In this document: piece after piece, positions 194 to 28,656 of the stretch
How positions within the stretch are numbered: position 1 is the first letter of the stretch
How the letters are laid out: every line of letters starts with the position of its first letter
IMG/VR virus record: IMGVR_UViG_3300032797_000018
Span: 1-31,559 of that record
From: a virus
Reading direction: 5' to 3' (one strand)
DNA length: 31,559 bases
Notes under the pieces: generated by a model
The model's input: only the letters and a program-made list of their open reading frames with translations
Told to the model about the DNA's origin: nothing
Databases searched by the model: none
Position numbers and translations under genes: made by a program

Positions 194-356
194 TTTGCCT
201 AATCCTTTCTTCTAGGAATCTTATAAACGCCTCAACAACTACAGGCTCCATTATAATCGTATTACTAGGATCATGTGAATCACCGTTCTCAGTCGTTAAG
301 ATGACATCATGACCATCAAAATCAACATACACACTGTCGCCTAGATAAGTTTTCAT
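177..356 (-). CDS. Small conserved phage protein, 59 aa
   Basis: ATG at 354-356, stop at 177-179. The protein begins MKTYLGDSVYVDFDGHDVIL and continues with TTENG and a SNTIIMEP-like segment. This is the form of a very common small phage protein of unknown function (KTYLGDSVY...LTTENG). It is rich in beta-strand-like hydrophobic/polar alternation and ends in a basic helix. The start overlaps the stop of the glycosyltransferase gene by 4 bases (ATGA), so the two are likely translationally coupled. Identification by family pattern is from memory; function is unknown. Confidence 0.8.
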   Translation of the reverse strand: MKTYLGDSVYVDFDGHDVILTTENGDSHDPSNTIIMEPVVVEAFIRFLEERIRQNVIQK

Positions 357-1021
357 AGTTGCTCCGCCTTATAGCTTTGGTTCTGTCTGCGTAGGATTCT
401 GTAGTTTTTCAGTTTCGCTTGGGCCTCCGGAGTCCGGCCACACCAATTCACGCCGGGTTCACCGAGATGTTCTACGAAACCCGGTAGCCATTGTTTGTGT
501 TCAGGTGGGTATTTCGCTTGGAACATGGAATCACAACCACCGGCATGTCGCCAATTGGTACCGTACCAAGGTTTCGTAGTGAGAAACTTCGAATCACTAT
601 GGAAGAGTTGGAAGTAGCCGGCGAGTTCCTTGTCATTGATTCTACGGCCGTTCTGTGTGCGACGCATACCATAGAGATCGTGTACGCTATAGGCGCCAAG
701 ATTCCCGAAGATAAGTTCCTGCGTTGCCGGAGTCTTAGGTAATAGGATGTCGGCATCTAGGACGAGATACCAGCCACTATAGTGCGTAGCGGCGAAAGCT
801 AATTCGATTGCCAATCCTTTATTGAAGTCCGCACCATTATCGTAAAAAGCATTGGTCCGCAATAATCCTACATTGTGTTCATCTGCTAGTTTTGCAGTTT
901 CGTCATCAGCCTTGTCAGTAACTATTAAGTAGTGATCGGAAATCTCCAGTGTCCTAGCAATAGTCTGTTTAAGATAATCCGTATAGTTCACGCAGACTGT
1001 GATTACTGTTAGCTTATCCAT
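353..1021 (-). CDS. GT-A fold glycosyltransferase (family 2-like), 222 aa
   Basis: The protein opens with a nucleotide-binding beta strand (LTVITVCVNYTDYLKQT), as in family 2 glycosyltransferases, where a short sequence follows the pattern 'vivtvcvNy.dyL..tl'. A second strand (HYLIVTDKADDET) and a cofactor-like DxD motif (LVLDADILLP, D89 and D91) follow. Downstream are Trp- and Gly-rich segments such as WYGTNWRHAGGCDSMF. It lacks a signal peptide or membrane segment, so it should be cytoplasmic and use a sugar nucleotide. At 222 residues it is short, equal to a catalytic core. AAGGTGATGA precedes the start as ribosome binding site. It overlaps the repeat protein by 8 bases upstream and the 59-aa gene by 4 downstream. 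The acceptor is unknown; a DNA base, virion protein or host glycan are all possible. Confidence 0.75.
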   Translation of the reverse strand: MDKLTVITVCVNYTDYLKQTIARTLEISDHYLIVTDKADDETAKLADEHNVGLLRTNAFYDNGADFNKGLAIELAFAATHYSGWYLVLDADILLPKTPATQELIFGNLGAYSVHDLYGMRRTQNGRRINDKELAGYFQLFHSDSKFLTTKPWYGTNWRHAGGCDSMFQAKYPPEHKQWLPGFVEHLGEPGVNWCGRTPEAQAKLKNYRILRRQNQSYKAEQL

Positions 1022-1880
1022 TCATCACCTTCACCACGACGGCGAACTGACACTGTTGACCGGCCCACAACGGGACGCCAGCACCTTCGAGATAAGCGTT
1101 GCCGTCTTCGTCCACCAGCACGGGATAGATGCGGGCCTCGAACTTGGGCGGCGGGTCCACGGGCTCGCAGGCGGGTGTGAGATTGCACTCACGGTCTTCG
1201 TCGTGTTCGACGCCATGATAAGTACGCACACCGACTAACACCCCGCCAACCTTGTCGTTGGCCTTCATCCGCCGCGGCTTGGGCGGCTTGGGCGGCTTGG
1301 GCGGGTCCACGGGCTCGCAGGCGGGTTTGAGATCGCACTCACCATCTTTGTCGTGCTCTTGGCTGTGGTAGTTACGCACAGCGTCGCCATCGTCAACCTT
1401 GTCGTTGGCCTTCATCCGCCGCGGCTTGGCGCGCGCGGGGGTGTCTCCGGGTTCGGGCAGCGGTTCCCACGGTGGAATCGGCGGCTTGGCGACGCCTCCA
1501 TGCGGCGCGTAGCTGGGGTCGAAGGCCGGCACGGGCGGCTGGCGTAGGCGGCGGTAGGTGGCCAGTTCTCCATCGTCACTGATCTTCTGCCAGTCGCCGG
1601 GCAGCCAAGCATTTCCGCTGTCGTCACGATAGGGCAGCCAAGCATTTCCGCTGTCGTCACGATACTCGTACTCCGGCGAGCGATTCTCGGCCTCGCCGGC
1701 GCGGCGGAGAAGGTCGTACTCGCGCGCGCCGACGCCCACCTCTGGGCCGTCATTGCCCCGGAGAAGCACCTTCTCTTGTCCGACCGCCGCACATTTGTAA
1801 CGGAAGCTGCCCCAATTCGGTGCCCACACCTCGTCGCCTTCGCGGCACCGTTCGCCGCCCGACCAGCATAGTTCGTTCAT
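1014..1880 (-). CDS. GC-rich, repeat-containing hypothetical protein, 288 aa
   Basis: No family is recognised. The N-terminal part (to about residue 65) is polar and Gly/Trp-containing. At about residues 73-94 the 11-residue unit YRDDSGNAWLP occurs twice in tandem, encoded by a perfect 33-bp duplication. The second half has two longer imperfect copies of a Pro/Lys-rich unit: a PRRMKANDKV motif, then a YHxxEHDxDxEC stretch, then PACEPVDPP. The acidic D/E-rich cores look like they could bind Ca2+, but this is only suggestive. The C-terminus (ARIYPVLVDEDGNAYLEGAG) looks like a compact beta domain. Base composition is far more GC-rich than the neighbouring genes, which suggests separate origin. 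A virion surface or adhesin-like role is possible but unproven. ATG overlaps the upstream stop by 4 bases. Confidence 0.6.
   Translation of the reverse strand: MNELCWSGGERCREGDEVWAPNWGSFRYKCAAVGQEKVLLRGNDGPEVGVGAREYDLLRRAGEAENRSPEYEYRDDSGNAWLPYRDDSGNAWLPGDWQKISDDGELATYRRLRQPPVPAFDPSYAPHGGVAKPPIPPWEPLPEPGDTPARAKPRRMKANDKVDDGDAVRNYHSQEHDKDGECDLKPACEPVDPPKPPKPPKPRRMKANDKVGGVLVGVRTYHGVEHDEDRECNLTPACEPVDPPPKFEARIYPVLVDEDGNAYLEGAGVPLWAGQQCQFAVVVKVMNG
1151..1430 (-). repeat. Two imperfect ~147-150 bp direct repeats inside the repeat protein gene
   Basis: Two blocks share long identical runs: ACGGGCTCGCAGGCGGGT occurs near 1159 and 1309 (offset 150), and CCTTGTCGTTGGCCTTCATC occurs near 1250 and 1397 (offset 147). 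Each encodes a copy of the Lys-Pro plus acidic unit. A run of GGGCGGCTT-type 9-mers (encoding KPPKPPKP) lies between them near 1277-1300 and is itself a microrepeat. Confidence 0.85.
1599..1664 (-). repeat. Perfect tandem 33-bp duplication
   Basis: The 33-bp unit at 1599-1631 is repeated exactly at 1632-1664 on the plus-strand reading. It is in frame and adds a second YRDDSGNAWLP to the protein. Exact identity suggests a recent slippage event or, less likely, an assembly artefact. Confidence 0.95.
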
Positions 1881-2074
1881 CGCTTATCCGCTTTCTCAAC
1901 CTGATTAATACGTAGAGCATATAGTCTCGAGATGATAGTCTGTTCAATAGTGCGAAAAGTATTTAACTCATGCAAGACGGCTTGTTGATCTTTCCGATTC
2001 TCAGTCAGAGTCTTGACCAACTCATCAACATCAGTAGAATGATTAATTTCACTAGGTGTCATATGCTTAGACAT
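1877..2074 (-). CDS. Small helical hypothetical protein, 65 aa
   Basis: I chose ATG at 2072-2074 because CTGGGAGTGAAC supplies a good ribosome binding site, and because an earlier in-frame start would overlap the previous gene by over 30 bases. The product begins MSKHMTPSEINHSTDVDELV and is mostly predicted helix, with heptad-like spacing through LVKTLTENRKDQQAVLHELNTF and an amphipathic C-terminal helix. It ends in a basic tail (VEKADKR). No family recognised. Its stop overlaps the start of the repeat protein gene (ATGA). Confidence 0.7.
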   Translation of the reverse strand: MSKHMTPSEINHSTDVDELVKTLTENRKDQQAVLHELNTFRTIEQTIISRLYALRINQVEKADKR

Positions 2075-2076
2075 GT

Positions 2077-2361
2077 TCACTCCCAGTGTGTTGGCCCATC
2101 GTTCTCGCAACGATAGGCATAGTTCATGGCTTCTTCGTTATCACTGTTAAACTGACACACGACCTCATGGTATGTGCCAAAATCGTGGGGTTGGGCTTTC
2201 ACCATGAGTCTAGCACCCTTTGGCTCTGGACCCATCTTCTTCCGTAAGAGTGCGATATACCGTTTGCACTCATCAATTGCCTTGACCGTATAATCCTCAG
2301 CCCCGACTTGCGCACAGTCTTCTTGCGACGGTGTAGGTCCAAGATAAATGTAGTCAATCAC
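2077..2361 (-). CDS. Conserved phage hypothetical protein (YLGPTP...), 94 aa
   Basis: Starts with GTG at 2359-2361, preceded by AAGG at 6 bases. The sequence MIDYIYLGPTPSQEDCAQVG, followed by a Cys-Lys-Arg-Tyr helix and a KAQPHDFGTYHEVVCQF segment, matches a small protein I recall as widespread in phages. No function is known for that family. The mix of beta strands (HDFGTYHEVVCQF) and helices suggests a compact cytoplasmic alpha/beta protein. The start overlaps the stop of the GT32-like gene, so it is likely translated by coupling. Confidence 0.8.
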   Translation of the reverse strand: MIDYIYLGPTPSQEDCAQVGAEDYTVKAIDECKRYIALLRKKMGPEPKGARLMVKAQPHDFGTYHEVVCQFNSDNEEAMNYAYRCENDGPTHWE

Positions 2362-3092
2362 AGGGCACCTTCTGCATAGTTGAACAACTTATGAATAAGA
2401 ATTGGAGAGTCCACCGGCCACGAACGCATGAGATCAGGATGATTAGCTACAAGCCACGAGTGATTCAGACCGAAGGCAACTGTATCCTTCGTTACATAAT
2501 CCCTCCAGTTAGTTGTTCCCACGAACCTCAGACAGCCACCGTGATCCAGATCAATTGGTAGGAAGGTTGAAAGCGGTAACTGGTGTATGATAACGCCCCG
2601 GGCACCTTGTAATGCCGGTGTAAGACACTGTTCTCCTAGTTTAAGCCACCAACTGATATTCATATCTGGTGTAGCTTCAATACACTTATTAGCGATATCC
2701 AACCAATCCTTGATAATCTTAGATTTCTGCTTGGCACCAATGTAACCTGTTATAACTCTACAAGGCTCCGTCGACCACATCATGTATACGAGATCTGATA
2801 TATCAACATATGAAAGCAGTGCACGCAGTTTATCGGCATCTAAGATTACGGTATCTGCATCAATCCACAGGCCACCGTATTTCCATAGCAGGGCAGCGCG
2901 GTAAAAATCAGTACGTGGACCGATTTCTTTGATCTCTTTATGCCTCGGTGTAATAAGATCTAAGATACCAAGATCCTTTAGTGTATCTGGATTAAGAATA
3001 GTGATATCTTCACCAAGACATTTCTTCATGCTGCCGAAACAGAGATCAATATGCGGCCACCGAGGCCCTTCCCAGTAGGTCCAGATTTTCAT
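2358..3092 (-). CDS. GT32-like glycosyltransferase with DxD motif, 244 aa
   Basis: The N-terminus (MKIWTYWEGPRWPHIDLC) and the segment LLWKYGGLWIDADTVILD are diagnostic of the capsular polysaccharide / GT32 (OCH1-like) sugar-transferase group. In these the YGGxYxDxD element carries the metal- and sugar-nucleotide-binding DxD, here D78 and D80. A further Gly-rich segment and a histidine (GLNHSWLV) lie near the C-terminus, as in the family. It is soluble, with no signal peptide. It overlaps the radical SAM gene upstream and the 94-aa gene downstream by 4 bases each, so it belongs to the same operon. Specific sugar and acceptor cannot be read from the sequence. A second protein of the same family lies at 26562-27239 with its DxD at the same residue numbers. 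Confidence 0.85.
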   Translation of the reverse strand: MKIWTYWEGPRWPHIDLCFGSMKKCLGEDITILNPDTLKDLGILDLITPRHKEIKEIGPRTDFYRAALLWKYGGLWIDADTVILDADKLRALLSYVDISDLVYMMWSTEPCRVITGYIGAKQKSKIIKDWLDIANKCIEATPDMNISWWLKLGEQCLTPALQGARGVIIHQLPLSTFLPIDLDHGGCLRFVGTTNWRDYVTKDTVAFGLNHSWLVANHPDLMRSWPVDSPILIHKLFNYAEGAL

Positions 3093-3976
3093 GGCTTATC
3101 TTCTTTATTTTCTTTATCTTCCCTGTACTTCTCCGGCCGCCAATCCGTAACAGGTGTCAACTCTGTTATGATATTGAACTTCCGGCGACTGCCCAAGGAA
3201 ACTAGTGTCTCGGCTGCATGTGGCGTGACGTCGTCAGTCTCCTCGAAGTCCCATCGCGGTTTCATTGGTATGGCCACACCACACTTGTCACAAAGTTTCC
3301 GCTGACCGTAATCGAAGAACCAGATGAGGTCATGTGTCCACCAGTCATCGTGTACTGGTGCTGCATGTACGCCATCGAAGTAAAGGTCATCTAGTGCTGC
3401 CGCGACCTCGCAGAAGTATGCGCCGTGAATATTGATTGCAGATGACCACGTCTCTTGTAACCAGCACTTATCCTGCATCCCACGCCGGGTATTGATGTCC
3501 GGTATGAGTTCCTCACTAGCAGCTAGGACTGGCGTATGCTTAGATTCCGGTAACGGATAACCATGAGGATTCCAATTGAGATACCCGTACACGTCTTTGA
3601 CAATGTTGCCATACGGCATAGCACCATAATCCACGCCTCTACCAGCCCAAGATGGGCGTACGCCCCATCCTGTCCATAATCCACGTTGACTCTTCTTCGG
3701 TATCATGAGTTTCATATTGTTCGAGATATCGACGAATTGTGGATGTAATAACGGCTCACCGCCTATGATACCGATTACACGTTCACGTTTGAACCCAGGA
3801 TCTGATGGTAGTGATAGGAAATCCACACTACAGTCTATAACTTCGGCGACCTTAGCTACCGGCATATGCCAACCAGTTTGCTTATGGCCTAAACATCTCG
3901 TACAGTTAGAACATCTCCTTATGCAATGGTTCGTTATGTCAATCTGTATTGACCATTTTTCACTCACTTGAATCAT
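3089..3976 (-). CDS. Radical SAM enzyme with C-terminal auxiliary cysteines, 295 aa
   Basis: I chose ATG at 3974-3976, overlapping the HNH stop (ATGA) and preceded by AAGGAGAATTGAA. The CxxxCxxC iron-sulfur motif is C18-C22-C25 (NHCIRRCSNC), and GGEPLL (residues 72-77) is the second family motif. The C-terminal half carries C171, C189 and a CDKCG pair (C229, C232), which would fit one auxiliary iron-sulfur cluster of SPASM/twitch type. Radical SAM proteins of this build modify peptides, sugars or other substrates by radical chemistry. Lying among glycosyltransferase genes, sugar or peptide modification on the virion or on a glycan is a reasonable guess. No Cys-rich or precursor-peptide gene is obvious next to it. 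The final residues are highly charged (KYREDKENKEDKP). Confidence 0.85.
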   Translation of the reverse strand: MIQVSEKWSIQIDITNHCIRRCSNCTRCLGHKQTGWHMPVAKVAEVIDCSVDFLSLPSDPGFKRERVIGIIGGEPLLHPQFVDISNNMKLMIPKKSQRGLWTGWGVRPSWAGRGVDYGAMPYGNIVKDVYGYLNWNPHGYPLPESKHTPVLAASEELIPDINTRRGMQDKCWLQETWSSAINIHGAYFCEVAAALDDLYFDGVHAAPVHDDWWTHDLIWFFDYGQRKLCDKCGVAIPMKPRWDFEETDDVTPHAAETLVSLGSRRKFNIITELTPVTDWRPEKYREDKENKEDKP

Positions 3977-4464
3977 TTCAATTCTCCTTGGTGTAAAGTA
4001 TAATACTCTGGCAATATATTGGCCGTTGCAAACTGCTCTTTTTGGTATCTTATTGCAGCACAAGCAACTCTAGCACAGTGATTAGAGCAGTATGGACCAC
4101 TACGATTAGGATTCCTATTTATTTTATCCATTATTTCTGTTAACGCATGCCCACTAAGACTAAAAGGCTTCTTACAATAGGGACAAATAAAATTGTGTGA
4201 CTTTAGTCTCTTAATATGTAATTTACGGTGTTCCGATCTTGTTACTATACGTAGATTAGTTATAACATCATTCATTGGATTACCATCTATATGATCAACT
4301 TGTTCAGAAGACTGTAATATTCTACCTAGATGCAGTTCCATTAAATATCTAGAATAAAAAGTAATTCTCCACTTACCTTTTATTCGTACCTGTATTCGCC
4401 ATCTAGTATTATAATTATCAAAATATGGTTGTCCGGTGTCAAATGGACCATATGGATTATTCAT
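3973..4464 (-). CDS. HNH endonuclease (homing-type), 163 aa
   Basis: The core VDHIDGNPMNDVITNLRIVT (D57, H58, then N70 and following H residues) is the HNH_3 pattern found in free-standing phage homing endonucleases. Two zinc-binding pairs follow, C94/C97 (CPYC) and C126/C130 (CSNHC), then C135. The N-terminal region (RWRIQVRIKGKWRITFYSRY) resembles the DNA-binding AP2/NUMOD-like segment seen before such cores. The gene is visibly more A/T-rich than its neighbours, which fits a mobile gene. It starts with ATG after GGAGCAACA and overlaps both neighbours by 4 bases, so it sits in the operon without breaking a gene. Confidence 0.9.
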   Translation of the reverse strand: MNNPYGPFDTGQPYFDNYNTRWRIQVRIKGKWRITFYSRYLMELHLGRILQSSEQVDHIDGNPMNDVITNLRIVTRSEHRKLHIKRLKSHNFICPYCKKPFSLSGHALTEIMDKINRNPNRSGPYCSNHCARVACAAIRYQKEQFATANILPEYYTLHQGELK

Positions 4465-4667
4465 TGTTGCTCCTTTATTGGTGCGTCGGGATGTGGATAT
4501 TCCGGGGCATCTTCAAGATCCGCTTCGGCTTCTGCATTGTCTAGTTCATAAGCAGCCACAGCAATTCTATCGGTACGGGTAGCACGGATTGATGGCGGCC
4601 ACGTTGGCAGACTCAGTGCCCACTGGTATCTGGCGCGGGCAAGTTGTAAACGGTCACGGCCTGTCAC
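4461..4667 (-). CDS. Small hypothetical protein, 68 aa
   Basis: Starts with GTG at 4665-4667 behind GGAGTAATGCT, 7 bases away; no ATG gives a better frame. The first half is a basic helix (RDRLQLARARYQWALSLPTW), and the second half is acidic (ELDNAEAEADLEDAPEYPH). No family recognised. Strong opposite charges in the two halves suggest a helical hairpin or a protein-binding adaptor, but nothing is certain. It overlaps the HNH gene start by 4 bases. Confidence 0.6.
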   Translation of the reverse strand: MTGRDRLQLARARYQWALSLPTWPPSIRATRTDRIAVAAYELDNAEAEADLEDAPEYPHPDAPIKEQQ

Positions 4668-4671
4668 AGCA

Positions 4672-5616
4672 TTACTCCTTAATCAGAGCCGACAGTTTAT
4701 TGTTCAGACGTACCGACTCCCTAGCATAATCATAATATGCCCGGCATTCCCATGCGAGTTTCCGTTGTGCATCTGCATCGTATGTCGCAATGGCATGACC
4801 GATAGCATCTCTTAGAGTCTGCGGAGTCCAAGTATACAGTCTAATAAGATTACTATCGATAACTGGTAGGACATCGTAAGGCGGTAAGTTTGTGATTACG
4901 CGGCATCCTGCTGCCGTAGACTCAAAGATCTTCTTGAGGGCGAAATTGTATACCGATGACGTGCAGATTGACACCTTATAGTGTGTCAGTGTCTCGAAGA
5001 ACATGTAGCTAGTTGTGCCAGACATGTGATATCCGGGATGCGGTAGAATGTCCACGTTCTGTAATCCCCACTTAATAATCTTCTCGCGTAATGGATAAAC
5101 AAAACGGTTCCTAGCACCTGAGAATAGTGCTCTATCATATCTCTGTCCGCAATAATAGGAAGAAGGTGTATTGAGGATGTGATAAGTACGTATTAGTTTC
5201 GACGGATCAAGAAATGGCATCTGTGCCAAGACACTCTTATCATGGTACCAAGTGAGATAGTAATCCGGTTCCCACTCATCAAACCATGCTTTATGCTCTT
5301 GAACTCTTGATCCGGCATCATGAGCCGCGGCGATGCGTACGCATTTCGGGCCGAGTTTGTTAAAATTGATAAAGCCTTCTTCCGGCGTAGTGGCACAGGG
5401 ATGCCGTACCGTGTAATCCCATTCATGCCGCGGCCACATGATTACTAGCTTCGCCCCCGGAACAGTTGACAGGTCATTAGTACAGATAGACTCATCGCTA
5501 GGCGGTAGATTACTTGCCATTGATTTCCAGCTACAAATCTCCATGCCACGTTGGAATAACCAACGACCATTATCCATATGCCGGCGATAAGATTCCAAGA
5601 TACACATGATTTTCAT
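4672..5616 (-). CDS. GT-B-like glycosyltransferase, 314 aa
   Basis: The C-terminal segment VYNFALKKIFESTAAGCRVI (about residues 222-241) is the hallmark of family 4/1 glycosyltransferases and CgeB-like relatives, where E in the KIFE helix and the AAG turn contact the sugar nucleotide. A preceding GYHMSG and the following NLPPYDVLPVID loop agree with this. The N-terminal half has MCILES and LVIMWPRHEWD strands like those of the acceptor domain of a GT-B enzyme. It is soluble. ATG follows AAGGAGTCTTAG, and the tRNA gene lies 17 bases upstream, so tRNA and enzyme may be on one transcript. The same group is used for glycogen, lipopolysaccharide and phage surface glycans; the acceptor here is unknown. 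Confidence 0.78.
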   Translation of the reverse strand: MKIMCILESYRRHMDNGRWLFQRGMEICSWKSMASNLPPSDESICTNDLSTVPGAKLVIMWPRHEWDYTVRHPCATTPEEGFINFNKLGPKCVRIAAAHDAGSRVQEHKAWFDEWEPDYYLTWYHDKSVLAQMPFLDPSKLIRTYHILNTPSSYYCGQRYDRALFSGARNRFVYPLREKIIKWGLQNVDILPHPGYHMSGTTSYMFFETLTHYKVSICTSSVYNFALKKIFESTAAGCRVITNLPPYDVLPVIDSNLIRLYTWTPQTLRDAIGHAIATYDADAQRKLAWECRAYYDYARESVRLNNKLSALIKE

Positions 5617-5633: not shown

Positions 5634-5709
5634 TGGTAGTCCCGAAGGGATTCGAACCCTTACTTTACTGCTCTTAAGGCAGTTGCCTCTTCCGTTGGGC
5701 TACGGGACC
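5634..5709 (-). tRNA. tRNA with anticodon UAA (Leu by anticodon), short variable loop
   Basis: Folds as a full cloverleaf of 76 bases with encoded CCA. Acceptor stem is GGTCCCG with CGGGACT (one G-T closing pair), D arm GCCCAACGGAAGAGGC, anticodon stem ACTGC/GCAGT around loop CTTAAGA, variable loop AAAGT and T arm AAGGG-TTCGAAT-CCCTT. The 7-base loop puts UAA at 34-36, reading UUA. A leucine tRNA normally has a long variable arm; this one has only 5 bases, so its charging identity is uncertain. It immediately precedes the GT-B-like gene. Confidence 0.9.
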
Positions 5710-5967: not shown

Positions 5968-6473
5968 GGCGTCCACCTTACCTTTCGGATGCAATACGGG
6001 CAGCCCTGCCAGCCCTGGTCTACGAACCACTCCTTCCGCCACGACGTTAAGCTCATTTTAGACAGGCACCCCGGCTTGTAGCAGCCGTGACCGGCGTCTG
6101 TCCACTCGCACACGTCGGCCTTGACCGCGGCGGTCAGGTTGTCCGTCCATCGGCGCAGCAACTGGTCGTTGACGTTGCGGTATGGTGCACAGATGTACTC
6201 TCGCATCTCGGCCGCCATGCGGATCACGGTTTCGCGAAGGTTGCTCATGGCGTCACCTTTAGGGTCTATGGGCGGTTGGCGTAGTTGATTATATTTCAGC
6301 GCCCATTCCAGGCGCGAGGCTTCGTTCGCCCACTCTACTGGCTCTTGCATTCCGGCTTCGTTATAGCGATTCACGGCGTCAGCGATTTCCGCCAAGCGCT
6401 TCTCCATCCAAAGGCGCTCGGGTATGATTCCAATTGGTGGCTTTGCGTGATTCTTGATTTCATGATTTTTCAT
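5964..6473 (-). CDS. Phage protein with helical N-terminus and C-terminal zinc site, 169 aa
   Basis: I chose ATG at 6471-6473 because GGAG sits 9 bases upstream and because the segment KPPIGIIPERLWMEKRLAEI is a common start of phage proteins of this type. The middle is helical with several Trp residues. The C-terminal part (CEWTDAGHGCYKPGC ... WQGCPYCIRKV) contains five Cys and one or more His, and looks like the zinc-binding end found in many phage proteins of unknown function (a CPYCGRK-like ending). It overlaps the 47-aa membrane gene by 14 bases upstream and the zinc-ribbon gene by 4 downstream. Confidence 0.7.
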   Translation of the reverse strand: MKNHEIKNHAKPPIGIIPERLWMEKRLAEIADAVNRYNEAGMQEPVEWANEASRLEWALKYNQLRQPPIDPKGDAMSNLRETVIRMAAEMREYICAPYRNVNDQLLRRWTDNLTAAVKADVCEWTDAGHGCYKPGCLSKMSLTSWRKEWFVDQGWQGCPYCIRKVRWTP

Positions 6474-6603
6474 AGTCATCGTCTCCGGTTTTCGGATTAC
6501 AGGCTTCATCTTTCTCCCAGAGCGGTGCAACGGCACAAGCCAATAAGGCAAAAATGCAAAAGATGACAAGCAGCACTGTTACGACAATGATGACGTTAGT
6601 CAT
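6460..6603 (-). CDS. 47-aa single-pass membrane peptide
   Basis: ATG at 6601-6603 overlaps the previous stop (ATGA); stop at 6460-6462. The product begins MTNVIIVVTVLLVIFCIFAL. The hydrophobic stretch covers about residues 4-26 and ends at a Cys (ALLAC), followed by a short polar, acidic tail (WEKDEACNPKTGDDDYEKS). ALLAC resembles a lipobox, but the N-terminus lacks the usual positive charge, so a simple membrane anchor is equally likely. Such peptides can be holins, spanin parts or membrane-exclusion proteins. It shares 14 bases with the next gene. Confidence 0.65.
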   Translation of the reverse strand: MTNVIIVVTVLLVIFCIFALLACAVAPLWEKDEACNPKTGDDDYEKS

Positions 6604-7043
6604 GCTCCACGCTCCCTTCTGGCCAACTCAATAGCAAGATTCCAGATCTCTGATGCTACGGCCGGAGTACAAGTTTTCTTGATACGGGCAAGAAAACCAC
6701 CCAGTGTGCGGTGTTGATGTAATAGGATATTCTGTGCCCGTAACTTGAGATCAACATCCTTAACTACTTGAATATGCACGCCATGTTCGTGACCAAAGAC
6801 TTCACAGCCCAAGGCATCTCGATAATTGCCTGCTGTTGCCTCTCTATAGAATCCTATCCCAGTTAGGAACACGGTATCAAGAGTCTTGACATCCGTAAAG
6901 AAATCGAGATCGGAATCCTTACTGTATCCACCTAAGGCATAGGAACCTGTCAGATGGAACATCATAGTAGGATGCGTAGACAGTGCGTAAACAATCCTTG
7001 CACGTTCATCAATGATGCCGATCAGGTCGCGTTCGGGTAACAT
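6600..7043 (-). CDS. Nucleotidyltransferase-fold protein, 147 aa
   Basis: The segment FHLTGSYALGGYSKDSDLDFF has the signature of the DNA polymerase beta-like nucleotidyltransferase superfamily: the GS pair (G33, S34) followed by DxD (D45, D47), which binds metal and nucleotide. The third carboxylate cannot be located with certainty; HVHIQVVKD-like positions (around residues 90-97) are candidates. It is short, equal to a minimal nucleotidyltransferase. Substrate unknown; such proteins modify RNA, proteins or antibiotics, or act as toxins with an HEPN partner, but no HEPN gene is visible beside it. Preceded by AAGGAGTAACTGGT. The DNA ligase lies 5 bases upstream. Confidence 0.7.
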   Translation of the reverse strand: MLPERDLIGIIDERARIVYALSTHPTMMFHLTGSYALGGYSKDSDLDFFTDVKTLDTVFLTGIGFYREATAGNYRDALGCEVFGHEHGVHIQVVKDVDLKLRAQNILLHQHRTLGGFLARIKKTCTPAVASEIWNLAIELARRERGA

Positions 7044-7048
7044 ACCAG

Positions 7049-8158
7049 TTACTCCTTGATATAAGAACGTTGATACCGAGCTTCCTGTGGGACACCATCC
7101 ACTGATGTCCCACGATACTGGAACGTGACGACTGTGCCACGTTGGAACTTCGGATTGTTCATCCAGTCTGGACAGATAGATCCAGGATTCTTAGATGCCC
7201 AATCCATCATTTCCACTGTCTCGAACTTGCGTTCCTCGTCTGTGAATCCCGACAACTCGAATACTAGATCACGTGGATCACTTGTCTTGCTCGGCATTTT
7301 TACGATTAGTGCGCCCATCAAACCTAACAACTTCGATCCCTTATCCGTTTCCCTACCTGTCGTGTAACCAACAACTGTTGCTTCGGAATCCTGTAACTTC
7401 TTCACTTTCAACAGTTTATACGTCCGTTCGCATACGTAAACTGATTCCGGTGCCCTCAACATTAGTCCTTCACCGCCGTCATTTGTTACGAGATCGAGTT
7501 CCTCTTGAATAGTTTTCACGGCGTCTGACGTAGAGAAAGACAGTTGTGTCTGAGTATGCGGAATCGTTATACTCCAGTCTACCAAGATCCGTTTCATGAT
7601 GGCATACGTAGTCTCGAATCTCGTTGACGGCGAAGGCATATAGGTTAGTGCGGCTAACCAATCCGGGCGTAACCAGTCCATGAACTTATGGAAATGCTTA
7701 CAGTAGTTGACACCATTGATATCGCCATCAGCCAGTATGGTGTCGAAAGATGGCATATCGAATATATAGTATTTCACCCGGCTCCAGGAGAAGGCTTCCA
7801 TGTTGCAGTCAATTTTCTTCAAGATTGACATGAGTTCCTGTCGCGGACAGTGCGGAATATACAGTTCGCCGTCAAGTGAGCATTTCGGTAATCTGTCTAG
7901 CCACCAAGCCGGTGCATGAACTACATTACCGTAGCGACTCCATAATCCAGTCGAAACTGGCGGAGTCAGGTATCGCTCGTCTTTCAGTTGGTTCGCCCAA
8001 GGAACCGTGTATTTCGGCATACCGCGAGTAATTCCACCATCCCACCAGCAGCGCATACCGTCGAGTTTCTCAGATAGAAACATGCCAGCAGCACAATCAC
8101 GTGCGGGTTCATACGTGTGCGCTAACTGTAGGAACTCTCTCTTGGTTTTGTTGGGCAT
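7049..8158 (-). CDS. ATP-dependent DNA ligase, 369 aa
   Basis: The adenylation motif FLSEKLDGMRCWW has the catalytic lysine (K31) and the KxDGxR pattern. Further nucleotidyltransferase motifs are visible: DGELYI (motif III area), EGLMLRAP (motif IV) and LLKVKKLQDSEATVVGY (motif V with linker). The C-terminal OB-fold region has FQYRGTSVDGVPQEARYQRS, close to phage T7-type ligases. It seals nicks using ATP and acts in replication and repair. The length fits small phage ligases. It sits in the gene row with the sigma factor, and starts at ATG behind GGAAGAATCAC. Confidence 0.93.
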   Translation of the reverse strand: MPNKTKREFLQLAHTYEPARDCAAGMFLSEKLDGMRCWWDGGITRGMPKYTVPWANQLKDERYLTPPVSTGLWSRYGNVVHAPAWWLDRLPKCSLDGELYIPHCPRQELMSILKKIDCNMEAFSWSRVKYYIFDMPSFDTILADGDINGVNYCKHFHKFMDWLRPDWLAALTYMPSPSTRFETTYAIMKRILVDWSITIPHTQTQLSFSTSDAVKTIQEELDLVTNDGGEGLMLRAPESVYVCERTYKLLKVKKLQDSEATVVGYTTGRETDKGSKLLGLMGALIVKMPSKTSDPRDLVFELSGFTDEERKFETVEMMDWASKNPGSICPDWMNNPKFQRGTVVTFQYRGTSVDGVPQEARYQRSYIKE

Positions 8159-8175
8159 GTGATTCTTCCTACTAG

Positions 8176-8385
8176 TTAGTTATCTAACACTTCGTAGTAG
8201 CAATTTCTTGGAGGATATGATAACTGCATAATTCTTGCTTGTTCTTTGAGTTCTTTAACTTTTTGAGTATCTTCCGGTGTCCAATTGATACCCAAACGTA
8301 TCGTATCATCCGACGGTGGTCCCATTTCCATCATAGGATTGTATCCCGATGGATAAATTTTATACTTTTTTAAGATTTCAATCAT
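8176..8385 (-). CDS. Small hypothetical protein, 69 aa
   Basis: I chose ATG at 8383-8385 over an in-frame GTG at 8392-8394, because GGTGA lies 6 bases before the ATG. The product begins MIEILKKYKIYPSGYNPMME, then has TWEDTQKVKELKEQAR-like acidic/basic helix content near the middle and ends YPPRNCYYEVLDN. No family recognised. Soluble and basic/acidic mixed. Confidence 0.6.
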   Translation of the reverse strand: MIEILKKYKIYPSGYNPMMEMGPPSDDTIRLGINWTPEDTQKVKELKEQARIMQLSYPPRNCYYEVLDN

Positions 8386-8403
8386 GGTTATCACCGTAGT
8401 TTG

Positions 8404-8880
8404 CTAGATGTGTAATCCTTTCCACCAATTATGCCAAGTTGGAAAGAATACTTCCATTGGATTCTTGATACCAATATTATGGCCACTTGAACAGTGTTTA
8501 GATTTCATAAAATTGTCCTGATTCCCAAGATAATAATGAAATGCCTCACTCACAAATCTAGTGGCTGTCTTACCTCGCACATCATCTAATAATGCATATA
8601 ATGATAAGTAATACGGACTCATAATATCTGGATAAATTGCAACAGTATATATACAACGTTGTTCTTTGTAGTGCATTAATGTTTCACCATCATCTATTAC
8701 TTTATATAAGTCTTCGAGTACCTCAAAATTATAAAATGGATACTTACCTTCTGTTGAGATTGTAACTTTAATACATCTATGAGAAGGCTTCCAAGCTCCA
8801 TAATCTAGACCATCTATTCTGTCAGGCATCTTACCTTCAAGAGGGTCCATAATCCAGTACTTAACTTCTGTGAAAGACAT
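8404..8880 (-). CDS. Hypothetical protein, 158 aa
   Basis: No family recognised. It is rich in aromatic residues, with several Trp, Tyr and Phe. A Gly/Asp turn (DRIDGLDYGAWKP) near residues 20-32 and a Cys/His cluster (MKSKHCSSGHN) near residues 125-135 stand out. It could be a small alpha/beta enzyme or a structural protein. Start is ATG behind AAAGGAGAAGTATC. It sits between the small gene at 8176 and the sigma factor on the same strand, with 25 bases to the sigma gene. Confidence 0.6.
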   Translation of the reverse strand: MSFTEVKYWIMDPLEGKMPDRIDGLDYGAWKPSHRCIKVTISTEGKYPFYNFEVLEDLYKVIDDGETLMHYKEQRCIYTVAIYPDIMSPYYLSLYALLDDVRGKTATRFVSEAFHYYLGNQDNFMKSKHCSSGHNIGIKNPMEVFFPTWHNWWKGLHI

Positions 8881-8905: not shown

Positions 8906-9502
8906 TTATCGCCTTAAAAGTTTCTTGGCTTTAGCTTGGATGTCTTGTAGAATCTGTCCCACCCGTTGGAAACTCAACCCAACACATGGAGCGATGTCCC
9001 TGATGGTAGAACCTTTCAATCTCAGTGCAAGTATATTATACTCAGCATCTGTGAGATCGAGTTCTTTGATGAGATCTTCCAAGGTATCATGATAGATACC
9101 ATTGCCACCCGGTATATCATCCATTAATCCACCATCGGCGTCATGGACAATATCTACGTAAGGAACTTCACCTGTCTCCTTGAGTTCCTCGAAGAACGTC
9201 GTATGTTTTAATACGACTATAGATTTCACACGCATGGCTCTTAGACAGTGACTATTTACGTATGCCCCGATATATGTAGCGATACGTGCTGGCGGCTCAA
9301 ATGCGAGTGCAATCCTGTTTGCAGCGATTACTAATCCCTCGACCGCTGCGGCCCTAATATCTTGTGCATACTGCCAGTCAGCACCATACTGACTAGCAAT
9401 CGAAAGAGCAAGTGGCAAATAATCATGTACCAGTTTCTCGAAGGTAGAATTACCTTCTGGTACAGTGATTATGCCATCCCCTACCTTGACCGTGATTTCC
9501 AT
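8906..9502 (-). CDS. Sigma-70-family sigma factor, 198 aa
   Basis: I chose ATG at 9500-9502, behind CAGGAGCGATT. The N-terminal half resembles region 2 of extracytoplasmic/small sigma factors: a helix with LALSIASQYGADWQYAQDIRA, an acidic IDAA-like segment and a following helical part (RIATYIGAYVNSHCLRAMR, the -10-recognition helix area). Near the C-terminus, a region 4-like helix-turn-helix follows (LDLTDAEYNILALRLKG, then IRDIAPCVGLSFQRVGQIL). It probably binds host core RNA polymerase and directs phage gene expression. Its own promoter lies just upstream. Confidence 0.78.
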   Translation of the reverse strand: MEITVKVGDGIITVPEGNSTFEKLVHDYLPLALSIASQYGADWQYAQDIRAAAVEGLVIAANRIALAFEPPARIATYIGAYVNSHCLRAMRVKSIVVLKHTTFFEELKETGEVPYVDIVHDADGGLMDDIPGGNGIYHDTLEDLIKELDLTDAEYNILALRLKGSTIRDIAPCVGLSFQRVGQILQDIQAKAKKLLRR

Positions 9503-9522
9503 AATCGCTCCTGAGTATTCTA

Positions 9523-9632
9523 TAATCAAATCACGTGCCGGTGAAAGTATCTGTCATAATATAGCACGGAAAAATAACTTGTCAAGTCGAAAAGTGAAAT
9601 ATTTCCTATTTGTTTTTATCGTGATTTGATTA
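9523..9632. repeat. 13-bp inverted repeat around the sigma promoter
   Basis: TAATCAAATCACG at 9523-9535 and its reverse complement at 9620-9632 are exact. The pair lies on both sides of the promoter, which suggests an operator bound by a dimer, possibly with DNA looping. The same motif (12 of 13 bases) is in the leader of ParB-like protein 2 at 19985-19996. Confidence 0.8.
9556..9585 (-). promoter_or_regulatory. Sigma-70-type promoter for the sigma factor gene
   Basis: A perfect TTGACA at 9580-9585 (minus-strand reading) lies before TATATT at 9558-9563 (16 bp apart) or TATTAT at 9556-9561 (18 bp apart). Transcription would start near 9549-9551, leaving a leader of about 48 bases before the ATG at 9502. 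It is closer to the host sigma-70 consensus than the other candidate promoters in the window. Confidence 0.75.
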
Positions 9633-9672: not shown

Positions 9673-10164
9673 TCATTGACAACTAATCATCGCCCAGAAC
9701 TCACGTGCCCGGAATCCTAATGGATTGTTTTCGATGCTATATACATATCCCTTCGGTGGAGTTGGATCGTATATCTTACTCTCTAGATGGTTCCACACCA
9801 CGGCGTGTCCGCCATTCGGTTTTTCGCCAACAAAGATTCCAGAATATTTATTTAAGTATTGCTGGAATCTTACTTCCAATTTAGTCTCGGTATCCATCAG
9901 TTGCCAATCCGCGTCCATACCTACTGGCGCCATACGCGGGAAGTACTCAATCAACACTAACGCTTTCCCACGTCTCAAGAAACAATCAACGATCTCTTGT
10001 ATATGGAATGACCGTATCCTATGTATTGGCTTCTCGGCCGACGGCCACCAAATCTCATTCCCAGTGTGTCCGATCTCGGCCCTTAACTCATCTGGATGGA
10101 CTTCCAGTAGCATTGCTGCCGCTGTCAAGATGCAGTGAGGCCCGATCTGTACCAGTATTCTCAT
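9673..10164 (-). CDS. Papain/C39-like cysteine peptidase-fold protein, 163 aa
   Basis: The N-terminal QIGPHCILTAAAML has the Q...C arrangement of papain-like C39 peptidases (Q6, C11 with the ATG at 10162-10164). Later come GGHAVVWNH (H120) and KIYDPTPP (D133), completing a Cys-His-Asp site in the right order, so catalysis is plausible. Start choice is uncertain: an in-frame ATG at 10171-10173 and a TTG at 10177-10179 exist. The coding region overlaps the NYN gene by 77 bases in another frame. Possible roles are protein processing, toxin or anti-defence activity; none is shown by the sequence. Confidence 0.6.
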   Translation of the reverse strand: MRILVQIGPHCILTAAAMLLEVHPDELRAEIGHTGNEIWWPSAEKPIHRIRSFHIQEIVDCFLRRGKALVLIEYFPRMAPVGMDADWQLMDTETKLEVRFQQYLNKYSGIFVGEKPNGGHAVVWNHLESKIYDPTPPKGYVYSIENNPLGFRAREFWAMISCQ

Positions 10165-19943: not shown

Positions 19944-19992
19944 CGATTCTCCTTTTATGATTTGGGAATCTTCGCTTACTGCCCTAATCAAA

Positions 19993-25265: not shown

Positions 25266-25893
25266 CTCAATGGTACATTGGAACGGTAATCAATTATGCG
25301 TAGTAGATATCGAGACTACTGGTCTCGATCCTTTTTGGCATGAACTCATCCAGATTTGTATCTTGCCACTGGATTCCAATATCCAACCACGCAAGGACGT
25401 TTTACCCTTCTACATCGAAGTCATGCCAGAATTCCCTGAGCGACGTGACCCCGAGGCAATGAGTGTTAGTAATCTCAATCTCGCTACGATTATGGCTCGT
25501 GGTCACGATAAAGAGAAGGCCAAAGATCTCCTCACCCTCTGGATGGACAAACTCGGACTCCCTCTAAATAAGGGAGGGATTCGCCGTTGTCAAATTATCC
25601 CCATTGGACATAACTACGCATTTGATCGCGCATTCATAATCAACTGGCTTGGATACTCACTATATAATGAGTATTTTCACGGTTGTTATCGCGATACAAT
25701 GGTAATAGCCTCTTACCTAAATGATAAAGCAGGCACCCACGCCGAGAAAGTACCTTACTCTAAAGTCAAGTTATCTTGGTTAGCTAATCTTATGGATCTA
25801 CCTATTGAACGTGCACATGATGCACTAAGTGATTGTGTAACTACAGCTGCACTCTATCGGAAATTTGTGTCTCAGGGTCTAATGGGGTTATGA
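25258..25893 (+). CDS. DEDDh 3'-5' exonuclease (DnaQ/oligoribonuclease-like), 211 aa
   Basis: The catalytic set is visible: LCVVDIETTGLDPF (D17, E19), IGHNYAFDRAF (the second Asp motif), and ERAHDALSD (H187, D192), with helices between. It removes 3' nucleotides from DNA or small RNA. The polymerase has its own proofreading domain, so this one probably acts in RNA or DNA turnover. Its last 53 bases overlap the convergent DUF115-like gene end. The start overlaps the FlbD-like gene by 8 bases, ribosome site weak. Confidence 0.88.
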   Translation: MSNSMVHWNGNQLCVVDIETTGLDPFWHELIQICILPLDSNIQPRKDVLPFYIEVMPEFPERRDPEAMSVSNLNLATIMARGHDKEKAKDLLTLWMDKLGLPLNKGGIRRCQIIPIGHNYAFDRAFIINWLGYSLYNEYFHGCYRDTMVIASYLNDKAGTHAEKVPYSKVKLSWLANLMDLPIERAHDALSDCVTTAALYRKFVSQGLMGL

Positions 25894-26542
25894 AGGAGTA
25901 AGTTAACGGCGAAACAGCCTTAACTATTCGTGATTTCAAATCCTTCCAGACCTGTATCCCCTGCCGGTAATCCGGCATCTGTTCAGGATAATCAGATACC
26001 CCATCTGTAGCATAATCAAAACTGATAAACGCAATAGTATTACAACCCATGAATTTCAGGATTTGTATAGCAACGAAAACCGTTAATGGTTTCTTCTCAA
26101 AGCCCAAGGAAACATGATTAAAGATACATCTATTCGTACACTTAGGATACAGCGTACCGACATCCGTATGCAGTAGCACGCCAGTTGCGGGATGCGGGTT
26201 ACATTGGGGCTTGGAGTCTTGTTGGATAAGATATAAATTCTTATCCACCATTGTCATGTAATCAATAGCCTCATTTATGGCTATGATTACGGAATCCGTT
26301 GGTATTTTAATACTGCCAATGGCTTTCAGGCTCGCTCCCTTACCAACGATTATACCTAATCTGCCACTGTATTTTTGTTTTAGATTACTACACAGTTCTA
26401 TTGGCTTATCCACCGTCAGCCAGTGTGTATGATCTAATTTGTGGTATAACTTATCAAAATATTGTTCTGCCAATATACTACGTCGTGGAATCCAAAGTAT
26501 ACCATTCGGTTCCAGTCTAGCGTTGAATTTACCAAGTCTCAT
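25841..26542 (-). CDS. DUF115-like protein (glycan-related), 233 aa
   Basis: The middle has GRLGIIVGKGASLKAIG, VIIAINEAIDYM and NLYLIQQDSK, the order and Gly-rich loop of DUF115-type proteins. These are related to sialyltransferase-like or flagellar-glycosylation (Maf-like) enzymes and the pterin-pyrophosphokinase MptE. The last part has a conserved-looking NTIAFISFDYATDG. It starts at ATG 26540-26542 with only weak ribosome-binding sequence. It lies next to a GT32-like and a capsule-synthesis-like gene. Role in glycan transfer is inferred from family and context. Confidence 0.68.
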   Translation of the reverse strand: MRLGKFNARLEPNGILWIPRRSILAEQYFDKLYHKLDHTHWLTVDKPIELCSNLKQKYSGRLGIIVGKGASLKAIGSIKIPTDSVIIAINEAIDYMTMVDKNLYLIQQDSKPQCNPHPATGVLLHTDVGTLYPKCTNRCIFNHVSLGFEKKPLTVFVAIQILKFMGCNTIAFISFDYATDGVSDYPEQMPDYRQGIQVWKDLKSRIVKAVSPLTYSFITPLDPETQISDRVQL

Positions 26543-26561
26543 AAATAATCCACTCTACCGT

Positions 26562-27239
26562 TTACAAGGTAGCCTTTCCTGTCATCCAAATGTGCCATCC
26601 GTACGGCACAATTTTGTATTGTTCCACGTATTTCGTTATATATTCTGTTATGTCTTCACCCGTCATCAGGGCTATAAGTAACTGCTTACTGTAATTAGTC
26701 ATTGCTCTATCTTGTCTACAGAATGGACAATAATACTCCTTCGGCAATATCTTTAATGCCTCGGGCATCTGTGCTCTTGCATAATTGAAACAGGCATAAC
26801 CACTTGCATTCCTACGATTAAACATCACAGGCACTTTTATACTGAGATAAGCGTCTATATGTTTCCACAGTCTGGCACCCTGTGTAGCTCCAATGAAGCC
26901 GACATCTACATTTTGAGAACTCCTACAGAATTCCACTCCGACGAAATCTGCGTCTTTAACATCATCGTAGATCGTATTGAATGGACGTATCGGTATAGTA
27001 TCTGTGTCCATAATCCATCCACCTTCCTCCTGTAATATCACCCACTTAATCAAGTCTACTTTATTTTGAATCCTGGGCATACGATCATAAAATCTTTTAT
27101 ACTTAATTGGTATACTTTCGTTACGATGTACAGTAATCTCAAACTCTGGATTAAGATTTCTCCACAGATCAATAATAAACTCTACCCAATCTGGTATAGG
27201 TGGACCGATCCAGATGAAGTGTATTTTACGTGGGATCAT
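26562..27239 (-). CDS. GT32-like glycosyltransferase, 225 aa
   Basis: The start MIPRKIHFIWIGPPIPDWVE and GGWIMDTDTIPIRP (D78, D80) are strong family marks of GT32/OCH1-like mannosyltransferases. A Cys pair (CPFC) near residues 170-173 and a final HIWMTG follow. It resembles the first GT32-like protein (2358-3092), with the DxD at the same residue positions but otherwise different sequence. It has no good ribosome-binding site, which suggests translation with its neighbour. Soluble; acceptor unknown. Confidence 0.85.
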   Translation of the reverse strand: MIPRKIHFIWIGPPIPDWVEFIIDLWRNLNPEFEITVHRNESIPIKYKRFYDRMPRIQNKVDLIKWVILQEEGGWIMDTDTIPIRPFNTIYDDVKDADFVGVEFCRSSQNVDVGFIGATQGARLWKHIDAYLSIKVPVMFNRRNASGYACFNYARAQMPEALKILPKEYYCPFCRQDRAMTNYSKQLLIALMTGEDITEYITKYVEQYKIVPYGWHIWMTGKATL

Positions 27240-27244
27240 GCCAA

Positions 27245-27276
27245 TCTGCTAATTAGTCAGTCTGCTAATTAGTCAA
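27245..27276 (-). repeat. Tandem 16-bp duplication spanning a stop codon
   Basis: TCTGCTAATTAGTCAG at 27245-27260 is repeated as TCTGCTAATTAGTCAA at 27261-27276. The stop codon of the capsule-synthesis-like gene is inside the second copy. A duplication in the intergenic space between the two glycan genes may be slippage or a recombination scar. Confidence 0.9.
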
Positions 27277-28656
27277 CCTGCCTAACCACGCTTGGAATTC
27301 TCTATTGGATGCTATGAAATCAGCATTACAGTTAAACGGTAACTGATGTCCATGTACAAGTGAACATAGATAACGTAATATTACTTCTTTATTTGGTACC
27401 CAATCCATTAAGTGTCTTAACTTGCTAGGATCTCTGGCACATTCCAATGTTGCATTAGATCCCGTATATGCACTTTCACCCAGAGTCCCTACCGGGATGC
27501 CTAGAGCAAGTGCCTCTGTGAGTACGGTACTATTCACCCCGACCACGGCAGAACAGTCTTTCAGTGTATCATAGACATTCTTGCTATCATCCATTTTCCA
27601 GTCCGAGCGGAATAGTGTAGTATACTTGGCTTTACTCCGTTGCCATTGATCCCGGAATCTTGGATGTGGTCTGATGATTAACGGGCGGTCGGGTAGATGT
27701 TTATTGAGTAATCGTAATGTTGCCAGTATGGTATCTTCTGTACGCTGCGCACGTGCAGGAAAGTGATACTTACAAGAGGCATCATTTATAGATTGCACGG
27801 CATACATAATAGGACCACTAGGATTACCACCTTGAAATAACTCCCAGTCGAAATGTCTCTTCACGATAGCTTTTACGGTATCGTAATCCGTTATGGTATA
27901 GGGTTCATCATAATGTTTTTGAGTGCAGAGATTAGACTCACTGAACCATCCACGACTATCTATCCATACCCCCGCGGACTGGCACAGTAATCCATTCTCG
28001 AAAAATAGAACATTAGCTTGGTGCCTATGATACCACCATGTTGGAATCTTTACTCCCCACGTCATGATATTGATAGTCTGACGGAATGCAGATTTGTAAT
28101 CATCGAAATTCGATGAGAAGGATAATTCTAAATTCGATTGTCTACAGGCTTCTATTAATGCTTTCTCTAGGGCCGCTTTAACCGTGGTGATTAAAATAGC
28201 CCTAGCCTTTCGGCTAGGGCTATTACTAGGGTTTGGAGTCACCTTGGATTCATCCCAATAACCTAGTGGACAGTTCTCTGTACTAAGAACTACCTTGTAT
28301 CGTGTAATACAACCACACTTCTTGCAACGATCCTTATGGTACATTTGACATTTGTTACTTTTACAAATCGTCAAACGTCTATCGCGTTCAGTATTTGATA
28401 CCTTTATCCTATTACCAGCGAGTACACTTCCAGCTACCCGTGCTAATGCTTTCGCTGCATTTGCCGCTTCCACCTGTATTGGTGGGAACTTACCTTGTAC
28501 GGAATCTGCTGTTATACCGAAAGGACACTCAAAGTTCGGATTACCATTAACTACCTCATAAGTTTTCAATACCCATTCACGAAATTTATCAGATAACCGA
28601 CAACTACTACAATGTTTGCGACTACTACAATACTCGGATTGATACCACTTGTCCAT
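27265..28656 (-). CDS. Zinc-ribbon plus capsule-synthesis-like fusion protein, 463 aa
   Basis: The first 150 residues are cysteine-rich: CSSRKHCSSCR near 10-20, CPFG near 44, then RLTICKSNKC, CKKCGC and ENCPLGYW. This is the pattern of small phage zinc-ribbon proteins (DUF6171-like). The rest resembles capsule polysaccharide synthesis/transfer enzymes (KpsS-type): RPLIIRPHPRFRDQ, then a GVNSTVLTEALALGIPVGTL motif with the Ser-Thr and Glu that bind nucleotide-sugar. The two parts meet at about residues 145-154, exactly where the DNA has a terminator-like hairpin. The start ATG has no good ribosome site. Confidence 0.75.
   Translation of the reverse strand: MDKWYQSEYCSSRKHCSSCRLSDKFREWVLKTYEVVNGNPNFECPFGITADSVQGKFPPIQVEAANAAKALARVAGSVLAGNRIKVSNTERDRRLTICKSNKCQMYHKDRCKKCGCITRYKVVLSTENCPLGYWDESKVTPNPSNSPSRKARAILITTVKAALEKALIEACRQSNLELSFSSNFDDYKSAFRQTINIMTWGVKIPTWWYHRHQANVLFFENGLLCQSAGVWIDSRGWFSESNLCTQKHYDEPYTITDYDTVKAIVKRHFDWELFQGGNPSGPIMYAVQSINDASCKYHFPARAQRTEDTILATLRLLNKHLPDRPLIIRPHPRFRDQWQRSKAKYTTLFRSDWKMDDSKNVYDTLKDCSAVVGVNSTVLTEALALGIPVGTLGESAYTGSNATLECARDPSKLRHLMDWVPNKEVILRYLCSLVHGHQLPFNCNADFIASNREFQAWLGRLTN
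28195..28224 (-). terminator. Terminator-like hairpin inside the fusion gene
   Basis: AATAGCCCTAGCC (minus-strand reading) pairs perfectly over 13 bp with its partner GGCTAGGGCTATT around a GAAA loop, and is followed by TTAATC, so the transcript reads UAUUUUAAUC after the stem top. Position 28195-28224 encodes residues 145-154 of the 463-aa protein, at the join of its two domains. Confidence 0.7.

Follow-up and report, generated by a model that had tools for sequence, protein, structure and literature searches.

The viral record IMGVR_UViG_3300032797_000018 of IMG/VR was analysed here in its entirety (31,559 bases, linear; called the window below). On its minus strand it carries a compact run of genes, from 5616 to 353, in which three different glycosyltransferases (GTs) accompany a radical S-adenosylmethionine (radical SAM) enzyme. 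With a probability of about 60%, we consider this run to be a phage-encoded cassette for the assembly and tailoring of a glycan, in which the radical SAM enzyme alters a sugar and the acceptor is most likely a virion protein. The family to which this enzyme belongs is real, widespread, apparently undescribed, and linked to glycosylation. Since the record is linear, it is probably a fragment of a phage genome; its DNA polymerase is only about 25% identical to those of cultured phages, in alignments spanning half of the protein.

The run starts downstream of a tRNA-Leu gene (5634-5709) and has the following order (L-numbers denote loci with relatives of the radical SAM enzyme; AF2 is AlphaFold2 and ORF an open reading frame):

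4672..5616, minus strand: GT-B-fold glycosyltransferase, 314 residues, the first gene of the run (Foldseek search of an AF2 model; homologs in L134 and L148)
4461..4667, minus strand: 68-residue ORF of unknown function (ORF call; without relatives among related cassettes)
3973..4464, minus strand: HNH endonuclease, PF13392 (Pfam and PHROG; without a homolog in related cassettes)
3089..3976, minus strand: twitch-type radical SAM enzyme, 295 residues (cysteine conservation, AF2 model, Foldseek, sequence profile)
2358..3092, minus strand: GT32/Caps_synth-type glycosyltransferase, 244 residues (Pfam; homologs adjoin the radical SAM gene elsewhere)
2077..2361, minus strand: 94-residue ORF of unknown function (ORF call; without relatives in PHROG or related cassettes)
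1877..2110, minus strand: 77-residue ORF of unknown function (ORF call)
1014..1880, minus strand: 288-residue proline-rich protein with internal repeats (without a homolog in Pfam or related cassettes)
353..1021, minus strand: GT2-type glycosyltransferase, 222 residues, with D89 and D91 of a DAD motif (Pfam; homology to a fused domain)

An earlier reading made from the sequence alone (the sequence-only reading) had named GT2-like, GT32-like, and GT-B-like genes together with a radical SAM gene, and all four were found, on the minus strand. It had passed over the five other ORFs interspersed in the run, the HNH endonuclease among them. Its view that the genes form an operon agrees with their close packing. 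The pairs 68-residue ORF/HNH, HNH/radical SAM, radical SAM/GT32, GT32/94-residue ORF, and 77-residue/288-residue ORF each overlap by 4 nt, the 94-residue and 77-residue ORFs overlap by 34 nt, and the 288-residue ORF and GT2 overlap by 8 nt, while 4 nt separate the GT-B gene from the 68-residue ORF. Overlaps of 4-34 nt and a 4-nt gap are the pattern expected for one transcription unit.

How firmly can the radical SAM protein be assigned? A Pfam search, PF04055 included, gave no match, and the PHROG match named "radical SAM" was at 6e-5. The protein carries CX3CX2C (residues 18/22/25) and a GGEP motif, and translation most likely begins with the ATG at 3976 rather than with the listed TTG at 4063, because this choice gives a 4-nt overlap with the HNH stop and agrees with the aligned N-termini of relatives. 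Single-sequence searches found no relatives in IMG/VR or INPHARED and nothing meaningful in the PDB, because non-conserved peptides had been picked as queries and the protein lies on a long branch. A scan of IMG/VR with the pattern C-x3-C-S-N-C-T-R-x2-G-H detected 51 viral loci, against about one expected by chance by our own estimate, and a hidden Markov model confirmed a family member in 49 of them. An alignment-based scan then yielded 158 viral relatives, plus 160 in genomes; bacterial relatives are common. With 31-39% identity over its length to 37 viral relatives, the window protein is full-length and divergent within a large family.

The four extra cysteines noticed in the sequence-only reading turned out to be a constant feature of this family. 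C171, C189, C229, and C232 are present without exception in 38 viral sequences and have a conservation of 1.00 in an alignment of 151 proteins (76 viral and 75 bacterial), where the triad C18/C22/C25 reaches 0.99. Besides these seven cysteines, N136, H147, W177, G185, F188, E190, and W213 are conserved at 0.99-1.00. The auxiliary residues are spaced C171-x13-G185-x3-C189 ... C229-x2-C232, and hairpin strands are predicted at 178-182 and 185-187 in the AF2 model. A twitch domain is a truncated SPASM domain with two cysteines around the glycine of a beta-hairpin, followed by CX2C, and binds one auxiliary cluster (PMC6231123). The window enzyme has this pattern, a triad plus four cysteines for a single auxiliary cluster, with a G-to-C spacing of 3 versus the 4 quoted for twitch domains in the same source.

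The predicted structure points the same way. The AF2 model (pLDDT, the predicted model confidence, 88) has a confident radical SAM/twitch fold, and the CX3CX2C motif together with the fold matches places the protein in the radical SAM superfamily; it is an oxygen-sensitive radical enzyme. The best PDB match found by Foldseek was SpeY (7wzv; E 6e-8, TM score 0.51, 280 columns, 16% identity), followed by BtrN (4m7t; E 2e-4, TM score 0.38-0.44). In the sequence-profile search SpeY was also at the top (E 0.014) and BtrN was listed (E 0.1). The nearest solved folds are therefore sugar and aminocyclitol dehydrogenases, and not a well-known family remote from glycans, which would have spoken against the sequence-only reading. 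This likeness is at the level of the modelled fold: the enzyme may work like SpeY and BtrN but is not classed as one of them, as homology does not reach significance.

Several other assignments were considered and rejected. Matches to NCBIfam models of peptide maturases are superfamily background, with scores far under the cut-offs (for example, 24 versus 400). A SPASM peptide maturase does not fit a protein with four extra conserved cysteines rather than seven, and the viperin model gave 13.9 bits against a cut-off of 180.

The link of this family with glycosylation is evident from the neighbours of its genes, analysed in 80 distinct viral loci. The counts are lower bounds, since gene calls were crude and G+C-rich contigs gave wrong frames; for example, the missed radical SAM gene of L134 (6903-7661) was recovered by tblastn. 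A conserved GT bearing DxD lies upstream of the radical SAM gene in 42 of the 80 loci, always on the same strand and in 39 cases at position -1 to -3. In 49 relatives, encoded on viral contigs or by bacteria of many phyla, a GT2-like domain is fused to the C-terminus of the radical SAM enzyme itself. Methyltransf_24 proteins occur in 16 of the 80 loci and short-chain dehydrogenases/reductases (SDRs) in 12. Two of the SDRs tested clearly resemble UDP-xylose synthase (E 1e-123 and 5e-63 against human UXS1) and are encoded by the virus beside the radical SAM gene (L156, 10084-11022; L007, 4417-5373). As a control, 110 sampled genes within three genes of the radical SAM gene were compared with 110 genes 6-14 genes away. 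The near set included Methyltransf_24 seven times, epimerases four times, GT2 up to five times, and NeuB and a cytidylyltransferase once each; the 25 families listed for the far set contained no such glycan family and were mostly portal, capsid, terminase, and tail. The joint function of the radical SAM enzyme and the GTs is more than proximity.

The GTs of the window take part in the same association. The GT2 enzyme passes the cut-offs of PF13704 (27.9 vs 27.5 bits) and PF00535 (25.6 vs 23.3), and its D89-A90-D91 motif is invariant. It is homologous to the GT2 domain of the fused proteins (E 2e-25 for L039 and 1e-19 for a Caulobacter protein), and it has standalone relatives in the radical SAM cassettes of L134, L148, L190, L136, L138, and L143. 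The GT32-type enzyme lies just above the cut-offs of PF04488 (24.1 vs 23) and PF05704 (25.1 vs 24.5); its homologs adjoin the radical SAM gene in L136/L002, L138/L139/L034/L015, and L143. For the GT-B enzyme Pfam gave no match and a single-sequence search no relatives; these surfaced only as neighbours of radical SAM loci (L134, E 4e-73; L148, E 2.5e-70), both within viral cassettes, and they touch PF13524 below the threshold. Its AF2 model, built from three sequences, is weak (pLDDT 60), yet all 50 Foldseek matches with E <= 0.001 are glycosyltransferases, mostly of the GT-B fold, with SenB, TarM, and WaaG at the top. The recurrence of GT-B, GT32, and GT2 enzymes of the window type shows the window set to be one version of a modular cassette that occurs repeatedly. 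The sequence-only reading would have failed if these genes occurred independently in relatives; the GTs recur beside the radical SAM gene instead. In one such cassette (L138 4787-13790, the same in L139) we observed three different radical SAM-type genes, one of SPASM type (6424-7464), one twitch (8001-8819), and one that looks B12-type (12435-13790), along with several GTs, a methyltransferase, and a sulfotransferase-like ORF.

The position of the cassette in phage genomes bears on the acceptor. PHROG identifies clusters of radical SAM neighbours as the major head protein, scaffold, portal, head-tail adaptor, and tail protein. A capsid gene was recognised in 23 loci and is upstream of the radical SAM gene, on the same strand, in all of them; the scaffold gene is upstream in 7/7 and the portal gene in 6/6, while the tail family phrog_394 is downstream in 7/7. 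In L168, L194, and L011 the order is portal-scaffold-capsid-GT-radical SAM-connector, and in L134 a terminase-like gene precedes the cassette and a capsid gene follows it. This placement in the head-tail block suits late expression and a virion acceptor, although it is not proof, the related loci not being independent.

Bacterial relatives of the enzyme sit in surface-glycan clusters, next to WbuX (N-acetyl sugar amidotransferase), WbuZ/HisF-like, and HisH-like proteins, a PtmA-like SDR, a PseF-like cytidylyltransferase, an FkbM methyltransferase, and many GT2 enzymes. Fusions of radical SAM and GT2 in bacteria (L053-L132) lie within clusters of the surface polysaccharide or flagellin type, and a locus frequently has two of them (L085, L091, L106, L109, L130, L131). 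In a FastTree phylogeny the labels phage and bacteria change at least 11 times, versus about 51 in shuffles, which indicates repeated exchange between phages and bacteria, yet coherent phage lineages. The window enzyme belongs to an all-viral clade of 13 rows (support 85); its branch is long, so its exact place is unsure.

From these data we infer the substrate, the reaction, and the acceptor of the cassette, with the mechanism of the radical SAM enzyme taken by analogy of fold. The GT-B, GT32, and GT2 enzymes would assemble a short glycan. The twitch enzyme would generate a 5'-deoxyadenosyl radical and take a hydrogen off a carbon of the sugar; the electron would be removed by the one auxiliary [4Fe-4S] cluster of the enzyme. 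SpeY and BtrN oxidise sugar-like alcohols; a comparable dehydrogenation would give a keto sugar, and the alternative product would be an epimerised sugar. The enzyme might act on a nucleotide sugar or on the glycan, and the glycan would most likely be carried by a virion protein (capsid, tail, or fibre). That a sugar is the substrate is probable, and on this point the sequence-only reading, which is partly supported in its interpretation as a whole, is well supported, as an inference, by the GT linkage and the SpeY/BtrN fold. Chemistry of the SpeY/BtrN kind, redox or epimerisation, is suggested by analogy and has a little less than an even chance of being correct; the same grade applies to a virion component as the acceptor.

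Some facts weigh against this picture. Genes for capsid, portal, and terminase, by which a virion linkage could be checked, are missing from the window fragment; its radical SAM clade differs from the main capsid-linked one, and it lacks a UDP-xylose synthase. The profile values for SpeY (0.014) and BtrN (0.1) are not significant, and EpeE, a peptide epimerase, scores about equally with them.

The last point leads to the possibility that the radical SAM protein is a peptide maturase, crosslinking or epimerising a phage protein or a small peptide in the manner of ribosomally synthesised and post-translationally modified peptides, with the GTs acting separately. The presence of EpeE among the profile matches, the weak NCBIfam matches (mostly to peptide maturases), and the small ORFs and repetitive proline-rich protein of the operon would agree with it. 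However, the enzyme has four auxiliary cysteines and not the seven of SPASM, relatives have no conserved precursor-like ORF adjoining the radical SAM gene, and its fusion partners are GT2 and methyltransferase rather than peptide-recognition domains, so that we regard this explanation as improbable. Still less probable, and very much so, is glycosylation and further modification of phage DNA bases. GTs of T4-like phages do modify phage DNA bases, and the window encodes a deoxynucleotide monophosphate kinase and an adenine methylase. Against this, among 39 viral records bearing the radical SAM gene, many of them fragments, thymidylate synthase/hydroxymethylase (PF00303) was found in one and TET/JBP above the cut-off in none.

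Modification of the host surface remains a serious rival, unlikely as we consider it. Enzymes captured from host polysaccharide clusters would alter the O-antigen, capsule, or flagellar glycan during infection and so block adsorption of other phages. The surface-glycan and flagellin-type clusters of the bacterial relatives and the repeated exchange seen in the tree speak for it, and the authors of a pelagimyophage study inferred modification of the host O-chain by phage GTs (PMC7029224). In phage relatives the genes belong to the late head-tail block and follow the capsid gene in 23/23 loci, which fits virion assembly better than an early alteration of the surface, and no flippase, membrane anchor, or polymerase was noticed in the cassettes, where no systematic search was made for them. 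Thus, among the acceptors that the sequence-only reading had offered (DNA, capsid, or host surface), DNA is disfavoured by the counts of 1/39 and 0/39, and the virion is favoured by the head-tail position of the relatives.

Two of the interspersed genes deserve mention. The HNH endonuclease (3973..4464) is probably a mobile insertion. The 288-residue ORF has a G+C content of about 61% versus about 44% around it, and its DNA contains a perfect tandem duplication of 33 nt (1599-1664) besides a repeat of 84 nt (82%); its proline-rich product is possibly a structural protein or an acceptor.

The window has a second glycan-type cluster (25841-28656, minus strand), just downstream of a gene with a LamG domain, tail- or fibre-like (29757-31559):

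25841..26542, minus strand: weak MptE-like/DUF115 match below the cut-off, possibly glycan-related (Pfam)
26562..27239, minus strand: GT32 glycosyltransferase (Pfam; weakly related, E 4e-7, to GT32b of the L136/L138 cassettes)
27265..28656, minus strand: Capsule_synth-type protein with a Cys-rich N-terminal domain (Pfam, PHROG, NCBIfam)

Between the last two genes, at 27242-27281, a 16-bp unit is repeated in tandem (2.5 copies). Elsewhere on the minus strand there are two ParB-like proteins, one passing PF02195 (14629-15477) and one judged by eye (18948-19991), as well as a sigma-factor-like protein (8909-9529) and a small protein resembling a cysteine peptidase (9676-10179), both without a Pfam match.

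The pairing of the radical SAM enzyme with GTs, at times within a single fused protein, is found again in over a hundred other uncultured phages. It suggests that sugars of unusual chemistry are made by many phages, perhaps on their own shells. A broader proposal envisages a widespread, undescribed phage system in which virion glycans would have keto or epimerised sugars produced by a twitch radical SAM enzyme, either standing alone or fused to GT2; it is put forward tentatively, as something possible rather than probable. If it is true, it would mean a new class of sugar chemistry in viruses, bifunctional radical SAM-GT2 enzymes, and uncultured phages wearing sugars made by radical chemistry; a family so far without a function would acquire one. 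Pfam does not detect this family, whose tie to GTs, through fusion and through the structure of operons, extends over phages and many bacterial phyla.

Glycosylation of phage virions is a young topic with few cases, and in our partial coverage of the literature we found no case with a radical SAM enzyme and no publication on a phage radical SAM-GT system. Mycobacteriophages Che8 and Rita are reported to encode GTs that glycosylate their major capsid protein (PMC11256854, citing Freeman 2023); this source mentions no radical SAM enzyme, and the glycosylation was demonstrated by experiment, whereas the window cassette is known from sequence.

The family occurs in virtually no cultured phage. Among 50,697 cultured-phage records of INPHARED there was one weak partial match in a cyanophage, Synechococcus phage S-SCSM2R, and six in Campylobacter phages; with such near absence, isolates would not have revealed it. 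S-SCSM2R resembles the window in having GTs, GT25, an aminotransferase-like protein, a short radical SAM protein, and an amidinotransferase in one run. It differs in its GT types and in a radical SAM protein that aligns to residues 9-94 of the family profile (E 7e-17, a single sequence). This run (L211, PQ898602.1 226446-238736) also includes 2-oxoglutarate oxygenases, its amidinotransferase is of the inosamine type, and it resembles aminoglycoside biosynthesis. Campylobacter phages CP220 and CPt10 have 11-12 radical SAM genes per genome, a feature "highly unusual" to their describers, who regarded them as an interchangeable module and proposed a metabolic benefit to the host (PMC2853527). They share with the window the phage-borne radical SAM genes, here accompanied by an amidinotransferase, but no GT is annotated in the stretch examined, and the match to the window family is short and weak. 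In CPt10 (L212, FN667789.1 70208-84402) five radical SAM genes and the amidinotransferase, a partner common to the cyanophage cassette, are nearly consecutive.

The closest enzymes of known function come from antibiotic pathways. SpeY is an enzyme of spectinomycin biosynthesis, and its structure (7wzv) is titled "Twitch Radical SAM Dehydrogenase". It is like the window enzyme in its one auxiliary cluster site and, probably, in its sugar-type substrate class; it works in an antibiotic pathway, whereas the window enzyme is part of a viral glycan cassette, and we know of no GT fusion for SpeY. BtrN, the 2-DOIA (2-deoxy-scyllo-inosamine) dehydrogenase of butirosin biosynthesis, has a CX3CX2C motif and a twitch domain whose four cysteines provide full ligation of one auxiliary cluster (PMC6231123). 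It acts on a free aminocyclitol, and its arrangement of triad and four cysteines is the same as that of the window enzyme.

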